From: an uncultured Verrucomicrobiota bacterium
GTDB lineage: Bacteria > Verrucomicrobiota > Verrucomicrobiia > Limisphaerales > CAIQOK01
NCBI GenBank assembly: GCA_903873415.1
Contig: CAIQOK010000097.1
Coordinates: 1-46,355 of the forward strand
Direction of reading: 5' to 3'
Length of the DNA: 46,355 nucleotides
Shown here: piece by piece, positions 16,137-24,603 of the stretch
Layout of the letters: the number at the start of each line of letters is the position of its first letter
Position numbering within the stretch: the first letter of the stretch is position 1
Made by a program: the position numbers and the translations under genes
The notes under the pieces: model-generated
Seen by the model: only the letters and a program-made list of their open reading frames with translations
Told to the model about the DNA's origin: nothing
Databases searched by the model: none

Positions 16137-16571
16137 CTAATCATGCTCCACTTGGTCGGATAATTCGTTGAGATCATCCGGCCCGGGCGGGAAGTGGAGT
16201 GCGAGAAGTTCACCCGCCTTGCAAACGCCCTGCAGCAGCCCTTCGGTGAATTCCGACTTGCGGAAATGCCCGGCCATGGCGGCGGCCAGATCGCGCCAAA
16301 AGCCCTCACCGCAGCGGACATGAACCCCTTCATCACCGACCACGGCAAACTTACAGGAGCGCGGCGCGATAAAAATCAGCACCGCATTCCGCTCCCGGGT
16401 CTTAGTCATGCCCAACCGAACAAACTGCTCTTGCGCCGCAGCGACCGGATCGATGGTTTTTTTGCGGCTGACAAAAACACGGATTTCGCCGGAGGTCTGC
16501 CGTTCGGCCTGACCAATCGCCGCCACTAGTTCGTCGTGTCGAAGTTCTTGGAGAAACTCTTTAACCTTCAT
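16137..16571 (-). CDS. TPM-domain protein
   Basis: A 144-residue protein consisting of one TPM domain (YgcG/Psb32 family), without signal peptide or membrane helix. Recognisable parts are QAERQTSGEIRVFVSRKK (the family's T-S-G/A-E-I/V strand), RNAVLIFIAPRSCKFAVVGD and HVRCGEGFW. The ATG at 16571 begins the homology; longer in-frame upstream sequence is an Arg-rich shadow of the Gly-rich tail of the neighbouring gene. It follows the larger TPM gene with a two-base gap, so the two are surely co-transcribed with lemA. TPM domains act in membrane quality control in some species; the role here is inferred from family only. Confidence 0.85.
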   Translation of the reverse strand: MKVKEFLQELRHDELVAAIGQAERQTSGEIRVFVSRKKTIDPVAAAQEQFVRLGMTKTRERNAVLIFIAPRSCKFAVVGDEGVHVRCGEGFWRDLAAAMAGHFRKSEFTEGLLQGVCKAGELLALHFPPGPDDLNELSDQVEHD

Positions 16572-16573
16572 GG

Positions 16574-17323
16574 CTACCAGCTCCCTCCCGCGCCGCCGCC
16601 GCCGAAGCTGCCGCCGCCACCGGAAAAACCACCCCCGCCACCCGAAGATCCGCCGCCGCCCCACCCGCCTCCGCCGCCGCTCCAGCCTCCCGACCATCCG
16701 GTTCCCCGATAAGATATGCCGCGGCGGGTTTGCCCGAGCGCACGAATGATCACAAAAAGAACAAAGAAAACGAGACCGACAAATGGCATGAGCGCCGGCG
16801 GCTTGCCCGCTTTTCCATCCGCCACCGTCCGCCCCGTGCCTTTGTATTCGCCCCGTGTTGCCGCAAGAATCGCCTGCACACCCGCCGTCAGCCCACCCGC
16901 AAAATCACCACCCTTGAAATACGGTGCAATCTCATCAGCGACGATCCGTTTGCACAAGACGTCGGGCAGCGCGCCTTCCAGGCCGTAGCCGGTCTGAATG
17001 AACATTTTGTGCTCTTGGACAAACACGAACAGGACCGCCCCGTTGTTCTTGGTCTTCAGCCCGACTTTCCAGGCCCGAGCCACGCGCACCGTGTAATCTT
17101 CCACAGACGAGTCGGATTGCATCCTAGGAAACACGGCGACCAGCACCTGATCGGAGGTCTTCCGCTCGAAGTCATCCAAGGTCCGATCCAAGGCGTCGGC
17201 AGTCGCGGGCGGGATGACCCGGGCATAATCGTTGAAGTGCCGCTGGGGAACGGGGGGAATGACCTCGGCTGCGGACAGGCCCAGCCCTAGGAGCAGAACA
17301 AAAATAGTGAAAATCTTCCTCAC
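16574..17323 (-). CDS. Exported TPM-domain protein with Gly-rich tail (YgcG-like)
   Basis: The 249 residues comprise a signal peptide (IFTIFVLLLGLGLSAAE), then a TPM domain at about residues 30-155 with FNDYARVIPP, TSDQVLVAVFP, NNGAVLFVFVQEHKMFIQTGYGLEG and GGDFAGGLTAG. One membrane helix follows (LMPFVGLVFFVLFVIIRAL, about 180-200), then a C-terminal tail built almost only of Gly and Ser with Trp and Phe. This is the standard YgcG/YdjH architecture, with the TPM domain in the periplasm and the Gly-rich tail in the cytoplasm. The gene lies three bases after lemA and two before the second TPM gene, a conserved three-gene unit in many bacteria. Confidence 0.9.
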   Translation of the reverse strand: MRKIFTIFVLLLGLGLSAAEVIPPVPQRHFNDYARVIPPATADALDRTLDDFERKTSDQVLVAVFPRMQSDSSVEDYTVRVARAWKVGLKTKNNGAVLFVFVQEHKMFIQTGYGLEGALPDVLCKRIVADEIAPYFKGGDFAGGLTAGVQAILAATRGEYKGTGRTVADGKAGKPPALMPFVGLVFFVLFVIIRALGQTRRGISYRGTGWSGGWSGGGGGWGGGGSSGGGGGFSGGGGSFGGGGAGGSW

Positions 17324-17326
17324 CGG

Positions 17327-17962
17327 TCAGGGCTTGGCCGCCGGTGCGCCGCCAAAATTGAAGTCTACCTTCGGCGGCGTGGCGGATCCGGGCGTGGCTG
17401 CGAAATACGGCTTGTCGTGAAAGCCCAGAACACCGGCATAAAGCACCGCCGGGAAAGATTTGACCGAGGTGTTGTAGCCGCGGACCGCCTCGTTGAAATC
17501 CCGGCGGGCAACGGCAATGCGGTTTTCCGTCCCTTCCAGCTGCGCCTGCAAGTCGCGGAAATTGGCACTCGCCTTCAGGTCAGGGTAGCGCTCCACCACC
17601 ACCATGAGACGGGAAAGAGCCGAGGACATGGCCCCTTGGGCACGCTCGAACTCGGCCAACTGCGCCGGATCGCTCGGTGCGGAGCGCGGATCCATTTTCA
17701 CCTGACCCACACTGGCGCGCGCCTGGGTGATGTCGGTGAGGGTGGATTTCTCGAAATTGGCGGCGCCGGAAACTGTGGAAACCAGATTGGGCACCAGATC
17801 GGCCCGGCGCTGGTAATCATTCTGCACCTGGGCCCACTTCTCATCCACCGCTTGCGAGCCCTGCACCAGCCGGTTATAGGCACCCGCAGCCAAAACCCCG
17901 ACGATCAGGATGAAAAGGCCGATCCCCCCGAGTATTCCGCATCCGATGGCAATTTTTTTCAT
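17327..17962 (-). CDS. lemA: LemA family protein
   Basis: The 211 residues include an N-terminal membrane helix (AIGCGILGGIGLFILIVGVLAAGAYNRLV) followed by a mostly helical periplasmic domain. Family features are YNRLVQGSQAVDEKWAQVQNDYQRR, DLVPNLVSTV, then RYPDLKASANFRDLQAQLEG and ENRIAVARRDFNEAVRGYN, which together form the LemA four-helix core. The last 35 residues are Pro/Gly-rich. Head of an operon with two TPM-domain genes. The molecular function of LemA is not settled. About 70 bases upstream of the start lies an intrinsic terminator on the same strand, so lemA expression may depend on read-through or on a promoter closer to the gene. Confidence 0.93.
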   Translation of the reverse strand: MKKIAIGCGILGGIGLFILIVGVLAAGAYNRLVQGSQAVDEKWAQVQNDYQRRADLVPNLVSTVSGAANFEKSTLTDITQARASVGQVKMDPRSAPSDPAQLAEFERAQGAMSSALSRLMVVVERYPDLKASANFRDLQAQLEGTENRIAVARRDFNEAVRGYNTSVKSFPAVLYAGVLGFHDKPYFAATPGSATPPKVDFNFGGAPAAKP

Positions 17963-19436: not shown

Positions 19437-20810
19437 CTAAAACCCCCTCCCAGCCCGGGGCGGACGAGCCTGATATCTTTCATAAAGCCTCGTGTGCCGG
19501 CTGGCCAGACTGACCTCTTCACCGGCAATCCAAAACCTCGTCACCTTCGCCCGGATATCCAGGATGTTGCCGTCGCAAATAAACAGCGTGGCCTCCTTGC
19601 CGGCCTCGATAGATCCCACCCGGCTCTGAACCCCAAGCATCCGGGCAGGATAGAGGGTGACCCCCTTGATCGCCTCCTCCTCGGGCAGACCAAACGCGAC
19701 GGCCTGAGCGGCGAGATACGGGAGATTGCGCGACATGGTGGCACCGAATCCACCACGCCCGGTCGCAAACCCAACACATACTCCGGCCCGATGCAGCACC
19801 TCTGGAGCTCTAAACTGGACGTCATAGGCGTCGGTGTCGCCCGGGGGCAAGGTGAAGATGTGTTCATAAAGGACAGGGATTTTGTGGGAGGCCAGCAAGG
19901 ATGCCGCCCGCCATGCATCTCGCCCTCCGGCTATCACGACCCTGAGATGATTCGTGGCTGCCCAGAGTGCGGCGGCTTGGATCTGCCTCAGCTCGTTGGC
20001 GTGGACGACCACGGGCAACTCCCCCTTTAAATAAGGGCGCATGGCCTCCCATGCCGGGATTTTTTCCGAAGCCCGTCCGGCCCGCAAAGCTCCAAAATCC
20101 TCAGTCCGGATATAAGCACGTGCGTCGTCAAAGAAATCCTCCAACGAGCGGATTTTATTACGCCGGTCCTGGTCCTGCTCATCGAATGCCTTCCACTTGG
20201 CCGGGTTGGCCAGCCGGTCTTTGGGCGTGATGTTCAAGGATTGGTCCGGCCAGAAGATGTGGAGCGCCGCGGGCTTTTTCACGATCATCTGCTCCCAAGT
20301 CCATCCAGCCAAAGCCAGCAGCGCCGACTGACCAGCGACAACATCGCCCTCCGGCGAGGGTTCGAAATAGCCGATGCCGTTGGCACGCGCCACCGGCAAG
20401 AGTTCAGAATCAGGGTTCACGGCGATCCAAGATTCCACCTCGGGAGTAAACTCGCCGACTTCCGTGGAGTCCTGGGTGGCGCGCACGGCGTCAATCTCCG
20501 TCAAGCCCAGAGCGCTGTCGGCCGAGATCAAGCCGGGATACAGGTGGCGGCCTTGGACATCGATCCAAACGGTTCCGGGCGGTATGGCAGGCGGCGGTGT
20601 TCCGGCTGATGCCCCGCGAAAAACCAAGGTAATGACGTTGGACTCTACCAGCACCGCGCCGTTGGTGAGAATCCCGTTGGCAACAGTATGCACCAAGGCA
20701 TTGGTGAACAGGAGTGTGGACGCATCCGCCCGGCCGCCCCCCAAAAGCAAAAGGATGCCCGACCAAAGGGCGGCCATCCAGACGCGGGATTTCAACAGTT
20801 CAATTTTCAT
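19437..20810 (-). CDS. Secreted amidohydrolase-like protein lacking metal ligands
   Basis: The 457 residues begin with a signal peptide (ALWSGILLLLGGGRADA). The rest has the fold pattern of the imidazolonepropionase-like amidohydrolases: a beta-sandwich start (LLFTNALVHTVANGILTNGAVLVESN), then DVQGRHLYPGLISADSALG. The C-terminal ending is GVTLYPARMLGVQSRVGSIEAGKEATLFI. In active members the P-G-L/F-I-D segment is followed by H-x-H, which holds the metals; here the residues are SADSALG. The late catalytic Asp segment also reads FATGRGGF instead of a G-T-D/S-D-type motif. Two histidines further on (VVVHANEL, YEHIF) remain. The enzyme is therefore probably inactive or uses another chemistry. The start overlaps the stop of the larger upstream gene (ATGA), suggesting joint synthesis and perhaps a complex. 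Confidence 0.8.
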   Translation of the reverse strand: MKIELLKSRVWMAALWSGILLLLGGGRADASTLLFTNALVHTVANGILTNGAVLVESNVITLVFRGASAGTPPPAIPPGTVWIDVQGRHLYPGLISADSALGLTEIDAVRATQDSTEVGEFTPEVESWIAVNPDSELLPVARANGIGYFEPSPEGDVVAGQSALLALAGWTWEQMIVKKPAALHIFWPDQSLNITPKDRLANPAKWKAFDEQDQDRRNKIRSLEDFFDDARAYIRTEDFGALRAGRASEKIPAWEAMRPYLKGELPVVVHANELRQIQAAALWAATNHLRVVIAGGRDAWRAASLLASHKIPVLYEHIFTLPPGDTDAYDVQFRAPEVLHRAGVCVGFATGRGGFGATMSRNLPYLAAQAVAFGLPEEEAIKGVTLYPARMLGVQSRVGSIEAGKEATLFICDGNILDIRAKVTRFWIAGEEVSLASRHTRLYERYQARPPRAGRGF

Positions 20811-23752
20811 TGGTCCTCCTGATCCAGACAGTGGCGCTCGCGCCCGTCGAACTCATGCTCCAGCGAGCTGCGGAAGAAGGCCTTGCCGCCATCATTGCCG
20901 GCATCATCCGAGCCGCCGGCCAGACGGGCGATCTTTCTTGCCTTGGCGATGAGATCCTTGCGTTCGGCCTGCAGACGAGCCGTGCGACCCGCTTCCAAAG
21001 CGCGGTCAAAATACTGCCGCCCGTCAATCCAGGTCTGCAGGCAGACCGTGCCGGAGTCCAGCGGCGACTTGGACCAGACCGCAAAGTCAGCGTCCTTGCC
21101 GGGTTCGAGCGAGCCCACGAATGCGTCGATGTGCAGCTGCTTGGCCGGGTTGAGAGTGACGAAATTGAGGGCTTTGGCCTCGGGAGTACCGCCGTATTTT
21201 ACGGCTTTGGCCGCCTCGAGATAAAGCCGGCGGGCGAGATCGGACGAATCAGAATTGAAGGACACGGTCACCCCGCGCTGGGCCGCGAGACTTCCATTGT
21301 AGGGAATCGCGTCATAAACCTCGAACTTGTAGGCCCACCAATCGGAGAAGGTCGACACCCCGGCACCATGCGCCGAAATCTCATCCGCTATTTTGTAGGC
21401 TTCCAGACCGTGCTGCAACGTGCCAACCCTCACCCCAAACCCCTCCATCAGCCGGAGCAGCATCAGGATTTCATCCTGACGATAGGAGTGGGAATGGATC
21501 AAGCGCCTGCCCTGGATGATTTCACCGATGGCTTCAAGTTCAAGGTCGCGGCGCGGAATCAGGCCGCCAGTCGACCGGTAAGCTTCCCAGTCTTGGAGAT
21601 AGTGTCGGGCGGCGGTGAAGCGGTTGGCGATAAAGGTCTGCACCCCCATGCGGGTTTGCGGAAAGCGCGATGTGACATGATCGCCCCAGTTGGACTGTTT
21701 TGGATTTTCGCCCAACGCGAATTTGATCCCCGCCGGAGCGTTGCTGAAAACCAGATCCTCGGGAGAATTCCCGTCACGGAGTTTGATGACGCAGTTCTGC
21801 CCGTCAATCGGATTGGCCGAGCCGTGAAGCAAGTTGGCGGCTGTCACGCCTCCGGCCAGTTGCTGGTGCAAATTGGGCGTCTCCGAATTCACCACATCCC
21901 GGATTCGGACCATCGCGGTCGAGGGAAGACTCATTTCATTGACGTTGCCCAGTATGGCGGAGTGGCTGTGACAATCGATAATGCCGGCGGTGATATGCCA
22001 TCCGGTAGCATCAAGGATCAATGTGTTGGTGGGCGGGGTAGCTGGAGATCCAGCGGCCAGGATTTTACCACCGGCAACGAACAGCTCCGCATTGGTGAGA
22101 ACGCCCGCCGGCCCGCCCGTCCAGATCGTGGCGTGGCGGATCAAGAGCGCAGGGGGGTTGGTGATCGCTCCGCGGCCTTCCTGGGGCGAGTGCGCGACCC
22201 GGATCCGCTGAGCTTCCCGTAAATCGTCCCCCTTTTTATCCTTCTTCATCGGAAGGCCTGCGTTGCTAGCCCCATTCGTGGCCGCCAGACTGACGGTGGC
22301 ATTGGTCGGCGCGGCCGATGCCGTGCTTTTGGTTGCGGATGCCGGCTTGGAAGGTTCCGGCGGGCAGGCATGAATTTTCCCGTCAATCCACACCGCCCGG
22401 ACTTTGGATTCCGGATCGAAGTAGCTGCGCCCTTGAACGATCACCAAATTGGCTATCTTGCCCGCCTCGATGCTGCCCAGCTGTTTTTCGACGCCGCACA
22501 ACCTGGCGGGAACAATGGTCAACCCGGCCAGCGCATCCTCTTCCGATAATCCGCGATCAAGTGCGAGCCTGAGATTTTTCCGGAACTCTTTCTTCTCCCC
22601 GAGCCCATAGGTGGTCAATGCCACCTCGAGCTTGAGCTCTCGCAACAGTGCGGGGTTCTCCGGCGCCCAGTCCCAGGTCCTCAGTTGATCGAGCGAAATC
22701 TGGTCCCAGTCCGCTTCGTCCGGCAGCTTGGGCAGGGACGGAAAATTCACAGGCACAATGAACGCCGCGCCGCTCACGCGGGCCAGATCGGGCCGGCGCC
22801 ATTCCTGACCGCAAGAAATGAGGATCAGGTTGAAATCCAGTTCCCGTGCGAGTCGGACCGCCCGGTCGTTCATCAGGGCGCTCCCGGGTTCCACGACAAA
22901 AGGCATTCGCTTGCCGGTGGCTGCCGCCAAAGCTGTCAGCCCCGGATCATATTCCGGCCGGCGTCGCGCGGCGGAATGCTTTTCAAAATCGGCCCGGTCC
23001 AGTGCGTAATGATCAGCGTCCAAAAACGTCTGCCGCACCGCCGCGATCACCCCCATCAGGGAGGAGGGAAACGAGCCGTCGTCCTGCGGCTCAAAGGCGA
23101 TATGTTGAAAAACCCCGGGCTTGAGGATCGCTTGGTTGGGGTTCTCCTCGGTCAAGGCAATCAATGCGCTGGTGCCGCGCAAAATACCCCGACAGGGAGC
23201 GACCACCGCCGTGGTGAAGCCCTGTTCGCGAAGAGCAGAGAGATTTTTTTCCTTGGGCGAATAATTGTCCGCCACTCTTGCTTCAGGATTGATTTTACCC
23301 AGCGCCGACCCCGGCCCGGCCCGGCCCGGGTCGGATCTGTCGCCGGGCGCGCCGAAAAACCGCCAACCACCGGCCGTCAGGCTGCCCCGGCCAATGGGCA
23401 TCGAGTCTCCCGTGGACACGGGCGGGTTGGTGGAATCCAAAACCAGATAGGATTCGATGAAGCCGGCGTAGACCGTGTTGCTGGTCATGTCCCAGACCCT
23501 TGCCCCGGCGGGGATGTCCACATTCGTGCCAACCGCCTCGATCAACCCGTCGCGGATCAAAACGGTTCCCGCTTCAAGAATTTGTCCGGGACGAACGACC
23601 ACCCGCCCGCCCGCCAGCGCATGAAGGCCTGCGGGGTGCGGACGAAAACCGGGGGGGGCCAGATCTCCAGCTGATGTCCCCATGAGAAATCCGCAGGTCC
23701 CTGCCAGCAGCGCAAACAGCAACTTGGGCAGAGGCTGGTGTAACATCGTCAT
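20807..23752 (-). CDS. Secreted tandem amidohydrolase, first domain degenerate
   Basis: About 981 residues from the ATG at 23752 (a second ATG two codons on is equally possible); longer in-frame upstream sequence is not protein-like. A signal peptide (KLLFALLAGTCGFLMGTSAG) is followed by two amidohydrolase-like halves. The first (about 45-470) starts VVVRPGQILEAGTVLIRDGL but has VYAGFIESYLVL where H-x-H is expected, and ends like the family (TIVPARLCGVEKQLGSIEAG). A Ser/Thr/Ala linker follows. The second half (from about 535) keeps the metal site: GIIDCHSHSAILGN, IHSHSYRQDE, VGTLQHGLEAY and FNSDSSDLARRL, ending NPAKQLHIDAFVGSLEPGKDADFAVWS. Only the second half is expected to hydrolyse a cyclic amide or peptide-like substrate in the periplasm. 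Coupled by ATGA to the smaller homologue. Confidence 0.85.
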   Translation of the reverse strand: MTMLHQPLPKLLFALLAGTCGFLMGTSAGDLAPPGFRPHPAGLHALAGGRVVVRPGQILEAGTVLIRDGLIEAVGTNVDIPAGARVWDMTSNTVYAGFIESYLVLDSTNPPVSTGDSMPIGRGSLTAGGWRFFGAPGDRSDPGRAGPGSALGKINPEARVADNYSPKEKNLSALREQGFTTAVVAPCRGILRGTSALIALTEENPNQAILKPGVFQHIAFEPQDDGSFPSSLMGVIAAVRQTFLDADHYALDRADFEKHSAARRRPEYDPGLTALAAATGKRMPFVVEPGSALMNDRAVRLARELDFNLILISCGQEWRRPDLARVSGAAFIVPVNFPSLPKLPDEADWDQISLDQLRTWDWAPENPALLRELKLEVALTTYGLGEKKEFRKNLRLALDRGLSEEDALAGLTIVPARLCGVEKQLGSIEAGKIANLVIVQGRSYFDPESKVRAVWIDGKIHACPPEPSKPASATKSTASAAPTNATVSLAATNGASNAGLPMKKDKKGDDLREAQRIRVAHSPQEGRGAITNPPALLIRHATIWTGGPAGVLTNAELFVAGGKILAAGSPATPPTNTLILDATGWHITAGIIDCHSHSAILGNVNEMSLPSTAMVRIRDVVNSETPNLHQQLAGGVTAANLLHGSANPIDGQNCVIKLRDGNSPEDLVFSNAPAGIKFALGENPKQSNWGDHVTSRFPQTRMGVQTFIANRFTAARHYLQDWEAYRSTGGLIPRRDLELEAIGEIIQGRRLIHSHSYRQDEILMLLRLMEGFGVRVGTLQHGLEAYKIADEISAHGAGVSTFSDWWAYKFEVYDAIPYNGSLAAQRGVTVSFNSDSSDLARRLYLEAAKAVKYGGTPEAKALNFVTLNPAKQLHIDAFVGSLEPGKDADFAVWSKSPLDSGTVCLQTWIDGRQYFDRALEAGRTARLQAERKDLIAKARKIARLAGGSDDAGNDGGKAFFRSSLEHEFDGRERHCLDQEDQ

Positions 23753-23958: not shown

Positions 23959-24603
23959 ATGTGGCAGCATTCGCAACCCGCTCAGGGTGATCCGGTCGAC
24001 TGGCTGGGATATTGGCATCCGCTCGCCGACCAACTCGGCTCGGCTAACGGTCTGCTTGCCCTTGGAGAGGTTTCGTGCTCCCTGCGACTGCCGGCCGTTC
24101 AGGATCTGGGCGGATTGCGCCGCTTTCTTCTGGAATATCAGAAACACCTGCTGCTGCCCCATGAACTACCGGCAATCCAACGCGCCTTCGACCACACCTG
24201 CCGTCGTGAGCTGCGCGAACTGGTCGCCTTGGATTGCGCTCTGGCCCGCGAACCCGCACTGCAGCATTTCACGGAAGCCAGCCGCCGCGCCGGACAGACT
24301 CAGTTGTTAAAACTCCGGCCACTCCGGGACGAGCGCGTTCCCCGGCGCTACCGGGAGGCGATCGAACGGGGCGAAGCGAACGGCTGGCATACCTTGGTCT
24401 ACGGGCTGACTCTGGCGCTTTATTCACTTCCCTTGCGCCAAGGCCTCTTGGGCTTTGGCTTCCAGACCACCCGCGGCTTCATCCACTCGGCCGCACGTCC
24501 ATTGCGGCTCTCGGAAAACGATTGCCGGGCCCTGGTCGCGGAACTCTGCGCCTCGCTGCCCCAAGCCGTTGAGACTCTTTTGTCTCTCAGGACGGCGGCT
24601 TGA
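23959..24603 (+). CDS. UreF-like protein (orphan)
   Basis: A 214-residue, all-helical protein that resembles the urease accessory protein UreF. Residues about 45-120 follow its pattern: F-L-x-x-Y-x-x-x-L-L-L-P-x-E-L-P-A, then [18 protein letters not shown] and a helix [14 protein letters not shown]. Residues about 140-205 read [20 protein letters not shown], then [20 protein letters not shown], as in the UreF C-terminal half. The N-terminal U-P-x-G-G-F-x-H-S-type motif of true UreF is not clear here ([14 protein letters not shown]). No urease structural or other accessory gene is in the window. A chaperone role for another metal enzyme is possible. The stop overlaps a possible TTG start of the next gene, so the pair may be co-transcribed. 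Confidence 0.6.

Follow-up and report, generated by a model that had tools for sequence, protein, structure and literature searches.

A verrucomicrobial amidohydrolase gene pair with one intact metal site and two domains that lack the ligand set

Two overlapping genes, A and B, encode three amidohydrolase-like domains in the stretch of DNA analyzed here (46,355 nucleotides, hereafter the window). Gene A encodes D1 and D2, gene B encodes D3, and only D2 has an intact metal site. This raises the question of whether D1 and D3 are decayed copies of an ordinary enzyme or working parts of one, and what they would contribute.

Layout of the gene pair and its metal sites

Open reading frames and the sequence itself confirmed the coordinates and the ATGA coupling given in a preliminary description of the locus (Table 1). 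The first ATG of gene A is at 23752 or 23746. Both proteins have a signal-peptide-like hydrophobic N-terminus and are probably secreted. Pfam searches matched Amidohydro_1/3 twice in A and once in B, with Amidohydro_1 in both halves of A. Domain borders come from profile-profile comparison and from aligning the proteins with 3ooq, the solved structure nearest to them. The pair is adjoined at 23959-24603 (+) by a divergently oriented, second, divergent UreF-type urease accessory gene (Pfam PF01730, E 4e-13); a different contig, C147, carries the urease alpha subunit of the host genome and its better UreF match, and no UreF gene was present at the matching place in any of the relative loci examined. 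A LemA gene and then two TPM-domain genes, the first with a glycine-rich end, lie at 16137-17962 (-).

Table 1. Coordinates in the window of the two genes, their domains, and conserved segments.
Feature	Position	Strand	Description
Gene A	20807..23752	-	981 aa; D1 (dead), linker, D2 (active), and helical C-terminal extension; from ORF and translation
Gene B	19437..20810	-	457 aa; D3, a single-domain dead partner; from ORF and translation
D1	22388..23506	-	Gene A residues about 83-455; amidohydrolase fold without the metal-ligand set
D2	20978..22180	-	Gene A residues 525-925; sole intact metal site of the three domains
ATGA overlap, gene A stop and gene B start	20807..20810	-	Translational coupling; from sequence
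B residues 438-450, RHTRLYERYQARP	19461..19499	-	Conserved C-terminal tail, candidate docking segment; H439, T440, Y446, R449, and P450 invariant in 68 species
B residues 101-130, LGLTEIDAVRATQDSTEVGEFTPEVESWIA	20421..20510	-	Follows the dead HxH strand; E105, R110, D114, E117, and P123 invariant; block pLDDT 51-72
D2 residues 681-700 (GENPKQSNWG...)	21653..21712	-	Active-site loop; 681-690 nearly invariant; low confidence in the monomer
D2 residues 801-820, TFSDWWAYKFEVYDAIPYNG	21293..21352	-	Nearly invariant loop; mean column entropy 0.49 and 0.41, pLDDT 59 and 70

Active members of the amidohydrolase superfamily have a (beta/alpha)8 barrel with HxH after strand 1, Lys or Glu after strand 4, His after strands 5 and 6, and Asp after strand 8. 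D2 has all of these, and H595 and H597 (HSH), K677, H755, H781, and D835 are invariant in 53 of 53 species. The earlier claim that only the C-terminal half of A has H-x-H with the later His and Asp therefore stands, as does the count of one intact site. That account overlooked a sixth ligand position, Lys677, which is the usual carboxy-lysine position and is His in D1 and D3, and D3 retains one of the later His residues (H270). E682 (in GENPK) was considered as the strand-4 ligand and rejected in favor of K677, since K677 is never lost in live copies and E682 is often Thr (in seven of nine live single-domain partners).

The amidohydrolase ligands are missing as a set from D1 (53 species) and D3 (68 species). 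Alignment placed SADSALG in D3 and ESYLVL in D1 at the HxH position, as had been read from the translations. In the window, D1 has Y102 where HxH would be, H217 in place of the Lys, and E288 in place of the beta5 His, and the beta6 His and beta8 Asp are absent; D3 has D98/A100 at HxH, H184 at the Lys position, Gly at the beta6 His, and no Asp. Across species, the first HxH position is Tyr or another residue in D1 and Thr, Asn, Asp, or Ser in D3. The beta6 His column of the dead domains is Gly or Ala/Ser, and the Asp is not conserved. D1 fails the ligand set and has profile matches to D2 and D3, and D3 fails it while keeping the fold (Z 42.9 to 3ooq). The pipeline label "amidohydrolase" is misleading for the dead partner gene.

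Some residues at or near the old pocket are retained. At the Lys677 position of D3, His184 is invariant (68/68); H270 at the beta5 His position is retained in 66 of 68 species, W187/P188 in 68 of 68, and D298 in 66 of 68. The D1 counterparts at the Lys and beta5 His positions are His217 (46/53) and Glu288 (51/53), and W318-R319-R320, near the old pocket, is found in all 53. Given H270 and the invariant His184, the absence of any metal is only likely for D3. These replacement residues might give D3, and perhaps D1, a new, unrelated or single-metal activity: a single metal ion could be bound by H184 and H270 in D3, and the equivalent residues of D1 are His and Glu. We consider this very doubtful, as neither His of HxH remains, nor do the beta6 His and beta8 Asp, their columns are variable or Gly, and the barrel mouth is not specially conserved.

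Conservation and co-occurrence among relatives

Two sources of relatives were used: 58 genomes from the order to which the window belongs, and a scan covering a single genome for each species. The scan returned 490 stretches that encode a gene B relative, corresponding to about 490 sequenced species with B, and the best 80 of these are nearly all from Verrucomicrobiota. Among the 58 relatives, 27 have both A and B, 30 have neither, and one has A alone; this last genome is 57% complete and its A gene runs into a contig end. The association has a Fisher P value of 1e-15, which ignores shared ancestry among these related genomes. In a phylum sample of 144 genomes, the identical seven genomes were matched by both families, two of them having only a lone intact single-domain gene that was matched by both queries. 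The dead paralogue is kept alongside the live one, as in an enzyme-pseudoenzyme pairing, and the proposal that two pseudo-enzyme domains travel with one active domain held in these related genomes.

The two genes are on the same strand and no more than 350 bp apart in 57 of 81 loci. Among 80 B loci fetched, A is close by in 58, and in 56 of these it lies within 350 bp. For the other 22, A was found elsewhere in the genome in two (G006 and G027); the remaining 20 comprise 17 with A elsewhere in the genome, one with an A fragment, and two with none. Since A and B lie apart at roughly one locus in four, the pair need not be a strict operon. Such separation would also fit genes that are co-inherited and act separately without a stable complex, D3 being, for example, an independent envelope protein of the same pathway. 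We think this improbable in view of the tight co-occurrence, the ATGA coupling in many loci, and the single-domain live/dead pairs that sit side by side in other lineages. No conserved neighbor besides A and B was found across the 80 loci. One locus (L066:1915-7683, G031:C2) has an open frame of 1922 aa with gene A's two domains, about 900 aa above the usual length, which is possibly a fusion or an over-long frame.

Intact ligands in the dead domains of relatives would have pointed to strain-specific decay, and they were sought and not found within the A/B family (53 D1 and 68 D3 sequences). Fixation of the live/dead ligand pattern in 53 species for A and 68 for B goes far beyond what chance would give. 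D1, D3, and D2 have mean identities to the window of 55%, 56%, and 73%, so D1 and D3 vary more between species; many of their residues are invariant despite the higher divergence. That ordinary amidohydrolase genes have simply decayed in this strain might be argued from single-domain relatives elsewhere that are lone genes with intact ligands, and from a plasmid copy in Hymenobacter that is in pieces. The conservation of the ligand loss led us to reject it: the 53 and 68 species share the loss, their frames are open, their motifs are conserved, and the genes co-occur. Decay has next to no probability.

Single-domain relatives and the origin of the dead domains

Outside the A/B family, single-domain live/dead pairs were identified in other Verrucomicrobiota (L041-L044, L152-L154) and in two sphingomonads (L032, L033), and lone intact single-domain genes in Bacillota, Actinomycetota, and other Verrucomicrobiota. 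The verrucomicrobial pairs (L152:5138-7716, L153:5815-8536, L154:5622-8212, and L041-L044) are of a second type, in which the live protein ends in LCCF or LCCY, with two adjacent and conserved Cys, and the dead one retains the first His of HxH. A plasmid of Hymenobacter volaticus (Bacteroidota) carries a broken copy of A and B (L031:5017-9076), with A split into at least three frames and B truncated; it is either a decaying gene pair or the product of sequencing errors.

Profile and tree analyses agree on the grouping of the dead domains. With hhalign, D1 matched D2 with a probability of 99.8 (score 154) and D3 with a probability of 100 (score 285), and the profiles of D1 and D3 are closer to each other than either is to D2. 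In a maximum-likelihood tree of 57 domains, one branch parts all dead copies, which come from three lineages, from the live and lone copies with support of 100/98. Support for this split is 100/96 when the long D1 branches are left out. A sister relationship of D1 and D3 has moderate support (91/83), and the Lys-to-His change at 677 is common to both. Approximately unbiased tests rejected trees that held D1, D2, and D3 together (p-AU 0.00015), that derived D3 from its own partner D2 (p-AU 5e-5), or that held the sphingomonad pair together (p-AU 1e-6). Holding the verrucomicrobial single-domain pair together gave a p-AU of 0.08 and was not rejected, so that pair may have a separate origin. Long branches could be drawing the dead copies together in the tree. 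Across these sequence comparisons, descent of all dead copies from one old dead lineage is well supported.

D1 is nearest to D3 and not to D2, which gives the large protein the appearance of an enzyme with a dead domain attached at its front. The simplest history consistent with these sequences would begin with a single-gene enzyme of the 3ooq type that duplicated, one copy losing its metal site. The live and dead copies would then have been retained as a coupled pair, and a further duplication of the dead lineage, with fusion of one copy ahead of the live domain, would have produced D1-D2 plus D3. Lone live genes, live/dead pairs, and one live with two dead domains, spread over hundreds of sequenced species, form a natural series for asking why enzymes retain dead copies. 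Because the dead copies match the live one in how widely they occur and appear to form a single old lineage, they probably serve as functioning components of an enzyme complex and are not products of gene decay.

A proposed heteromeric enzyme and its known counterparts

AlphaFold2 models were built from alignments of the family's own members and reached a pLDDT of 88.6 and a pTM of 0.86 for B, and 82.4 and 0.83 for A. The closest fold is 3ooq, a Thermotoga maritima amidohydrolase, for both D2 (Z 45.5, rmsd 2.2, 371 aligned, 32% identity) and D3 (Z 42.9, rmsd 2.6, 362 aligned, 26% identity), and phmmer matched it with E values of 1.3e-50 (A) and 1.1e-26 (B). The next folds have Z scores of 22-24 and include prolidases, Arg/Lys carboxypeptidases, and isoaspartyl dipeptidases, among others. 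D2 filled the search list for A, so the fold of D1 was judged from secondary structure in the model and its profile match. Both A and B are homologous to the 3ooq-like family of single amidohydrolases in sequence and fold; they do not fit it as a stand-alone single-domain gene, since D2 forms one protein with D1 and is found together with D3.

Several of the most conserved segments are poorly settled in the monomer models. The consensus of the B tail (residues 438-450) is RHTRLYEKYxxRP, among the most conserved stretches of the protein, and its blocks have pLDDT values of only 60 and 52; residues 441-450 have an entropy of 0.75 at a pLDDT of 60. The D2 loop has a mean column entropy of 0.15 at 681-690 (pLDDT 54) and 1.04 at 691-700 (pLDDT 47). 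Low pLDDT at conserved loops can also come from shallow alignments or from a missing metal or substrate. Neither A proteins nor single enzymes nor live partners have the tail motif, and dead sphingomonad partners end in a similar tail. The motif is also absent from the single-domain dead partners of other Verrucomicrobiota, so docking by the tail cannot be universal.

Conservation at the barrel mouths, with positions set by strand ends and not by real distances, separates D2 from the dead domains. The mouth of D2 is conserved above the rest of the domain (entropy 0.35 versus 0.82), with 1.8% of shifted controls as low (P = 0.018), and the mouths of the dead domains showed no extra conservation, with 29% of shifted controls as low for D1 and 74% for D3 (P = 0.29 and 0.74). 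This bears on the possibility that the dead domains are substrate- or product-binding modules whose old pockets hold a ligand and feed or regulate D2. The pocket residues kept in D3 (H184, W187/P188, H270, D298) and D1 (H217, E288, W318-R319-R320) would suit such a role, and the mouths of D1 and D3, unlike that of D2, are no more conserved than elsewhere; we regard it as unlikely. The dead copies had been suggested to bind substrate or to act as a scaffold. The barrel mouths and the B tail lean toward scaffold or assembly, and substrate binding is less supported.

Conserved segments that are unsettled in a monomer are expected at an interface, which is why we propose that D3 docks on A through its tail and orders the D2 site. 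In this proposal A and B would be partners in a secreted heteromer: D2 would do the catalysis, and D1 and D3, which have the same fold, would not be catalytic. D3 would take the place of the second subunit of an ancestral oligomer, its conserved C-terminal tail docking on A, and the docked D3 would help to order the conserved loops around the D2 metal site. D1 would most likely serve as an internal subunit with a structural role. For a heteromeric amidohydrolase in which D3 docks on A and helps to order the active site, belief and doubt are about equal on the sequences and models at hand. A wider version is tentative and the less probable: an obligately heteromeric family, present at the least in Verrucomicrobiota, Bacteroidota, and sphingomonads, whose dead paralogue uses its tail and loop to complete or gate the live site. 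In this version a second duplication of the dead lineage, with fusion to the enzyme, would have given two dead domains per live one. The proteins are small and apparently secreted and can be made and mixed, so whether the dead paralogue switches on the live one is directly testable.

Little points to the substrate. The score of D2 lies far under the cut-off of every NCBIfam equivalog, including hutI (imidazolonepropionase; 60 versus a cut-off of 298 bits) and XaaProDiPepCaul (Xaa-Pro dipeptidase; 65 versus 500). On a Qipengyuania citrea plasmid (L033:2684-7173), a live/dead pair with genes overlapping by 4 bp is directly downstream of a peptide MFS transporter. Neighbors of single-domain pairs vary (MFS, GntR/aminotransferase, GFO/IDH/MocA, glucosamine isomerase-like), so the peptide transporter beside this sphingomonad pair is the only substrate hint, and a peptide or N-acyl-amino-acid substrate is a guess.

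We searched the literature, with subscription journals mostly outside the search, and found no description of the A/B pair and no paper on 3ooq, a structural-genomics entry for an uncharacterized amidohydrolase. A 2026 preprint on metal-dependent bile salt hydrolases describes YtcJ-like enzymes (Pfam PF07969) with an extra C-terminal domain; the terms "heterodimer," "inactive," and "pseudoenzyme" are absent from it (PMC13081902). COG1228-type prolidases and carboxypeptidases and isoaspartyl dipeptidase (3feq/3n2c, 3mtw, 3mkv, 1onw) are the next closest folds (Z about 22-24). They are single-domain enzymes, and their identity to D2 and D3 is only about 14-21%, so their substrates cannot be transferred to A/B. 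3ooq, which we take to be TM0814, is the best sequence and fold match of D2 and D3 and has the whole ligand set in common with D2, but it is a single domain with an intact site. Its single-gene relatives in Bacillota, Actinomycetota, and other Verrucomicrobiota likewise differ from A/B in having neither a dead partner nor the tail.

Partnerships of an enzyme with a pseudoenzyme are already known, and A/B would be a further form of one. In ADAT2/ADAT3 and in the mitochondrial processing peptidase, live and dead paralogues of one fold are retained as a working enzyme. Both have folds unrelated to that of A/B and are not known to have a fused second dead domain like that of A. A precedent within the same superfamily is found in Pseudomonas aeruginosa, where an inactive dihydroorotase-like chain is necessary for the activity and stability of aspartate transcarbamoylase (PMC7053772). 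There, as proposed for A/B, an inactive chain of amidohydrolase fold stands beside a partner enzyme; the live partner is an unrelated transcarbamoylase, whereas the live and dead parts of A/B belong to one family, with two dead domains for each live one.
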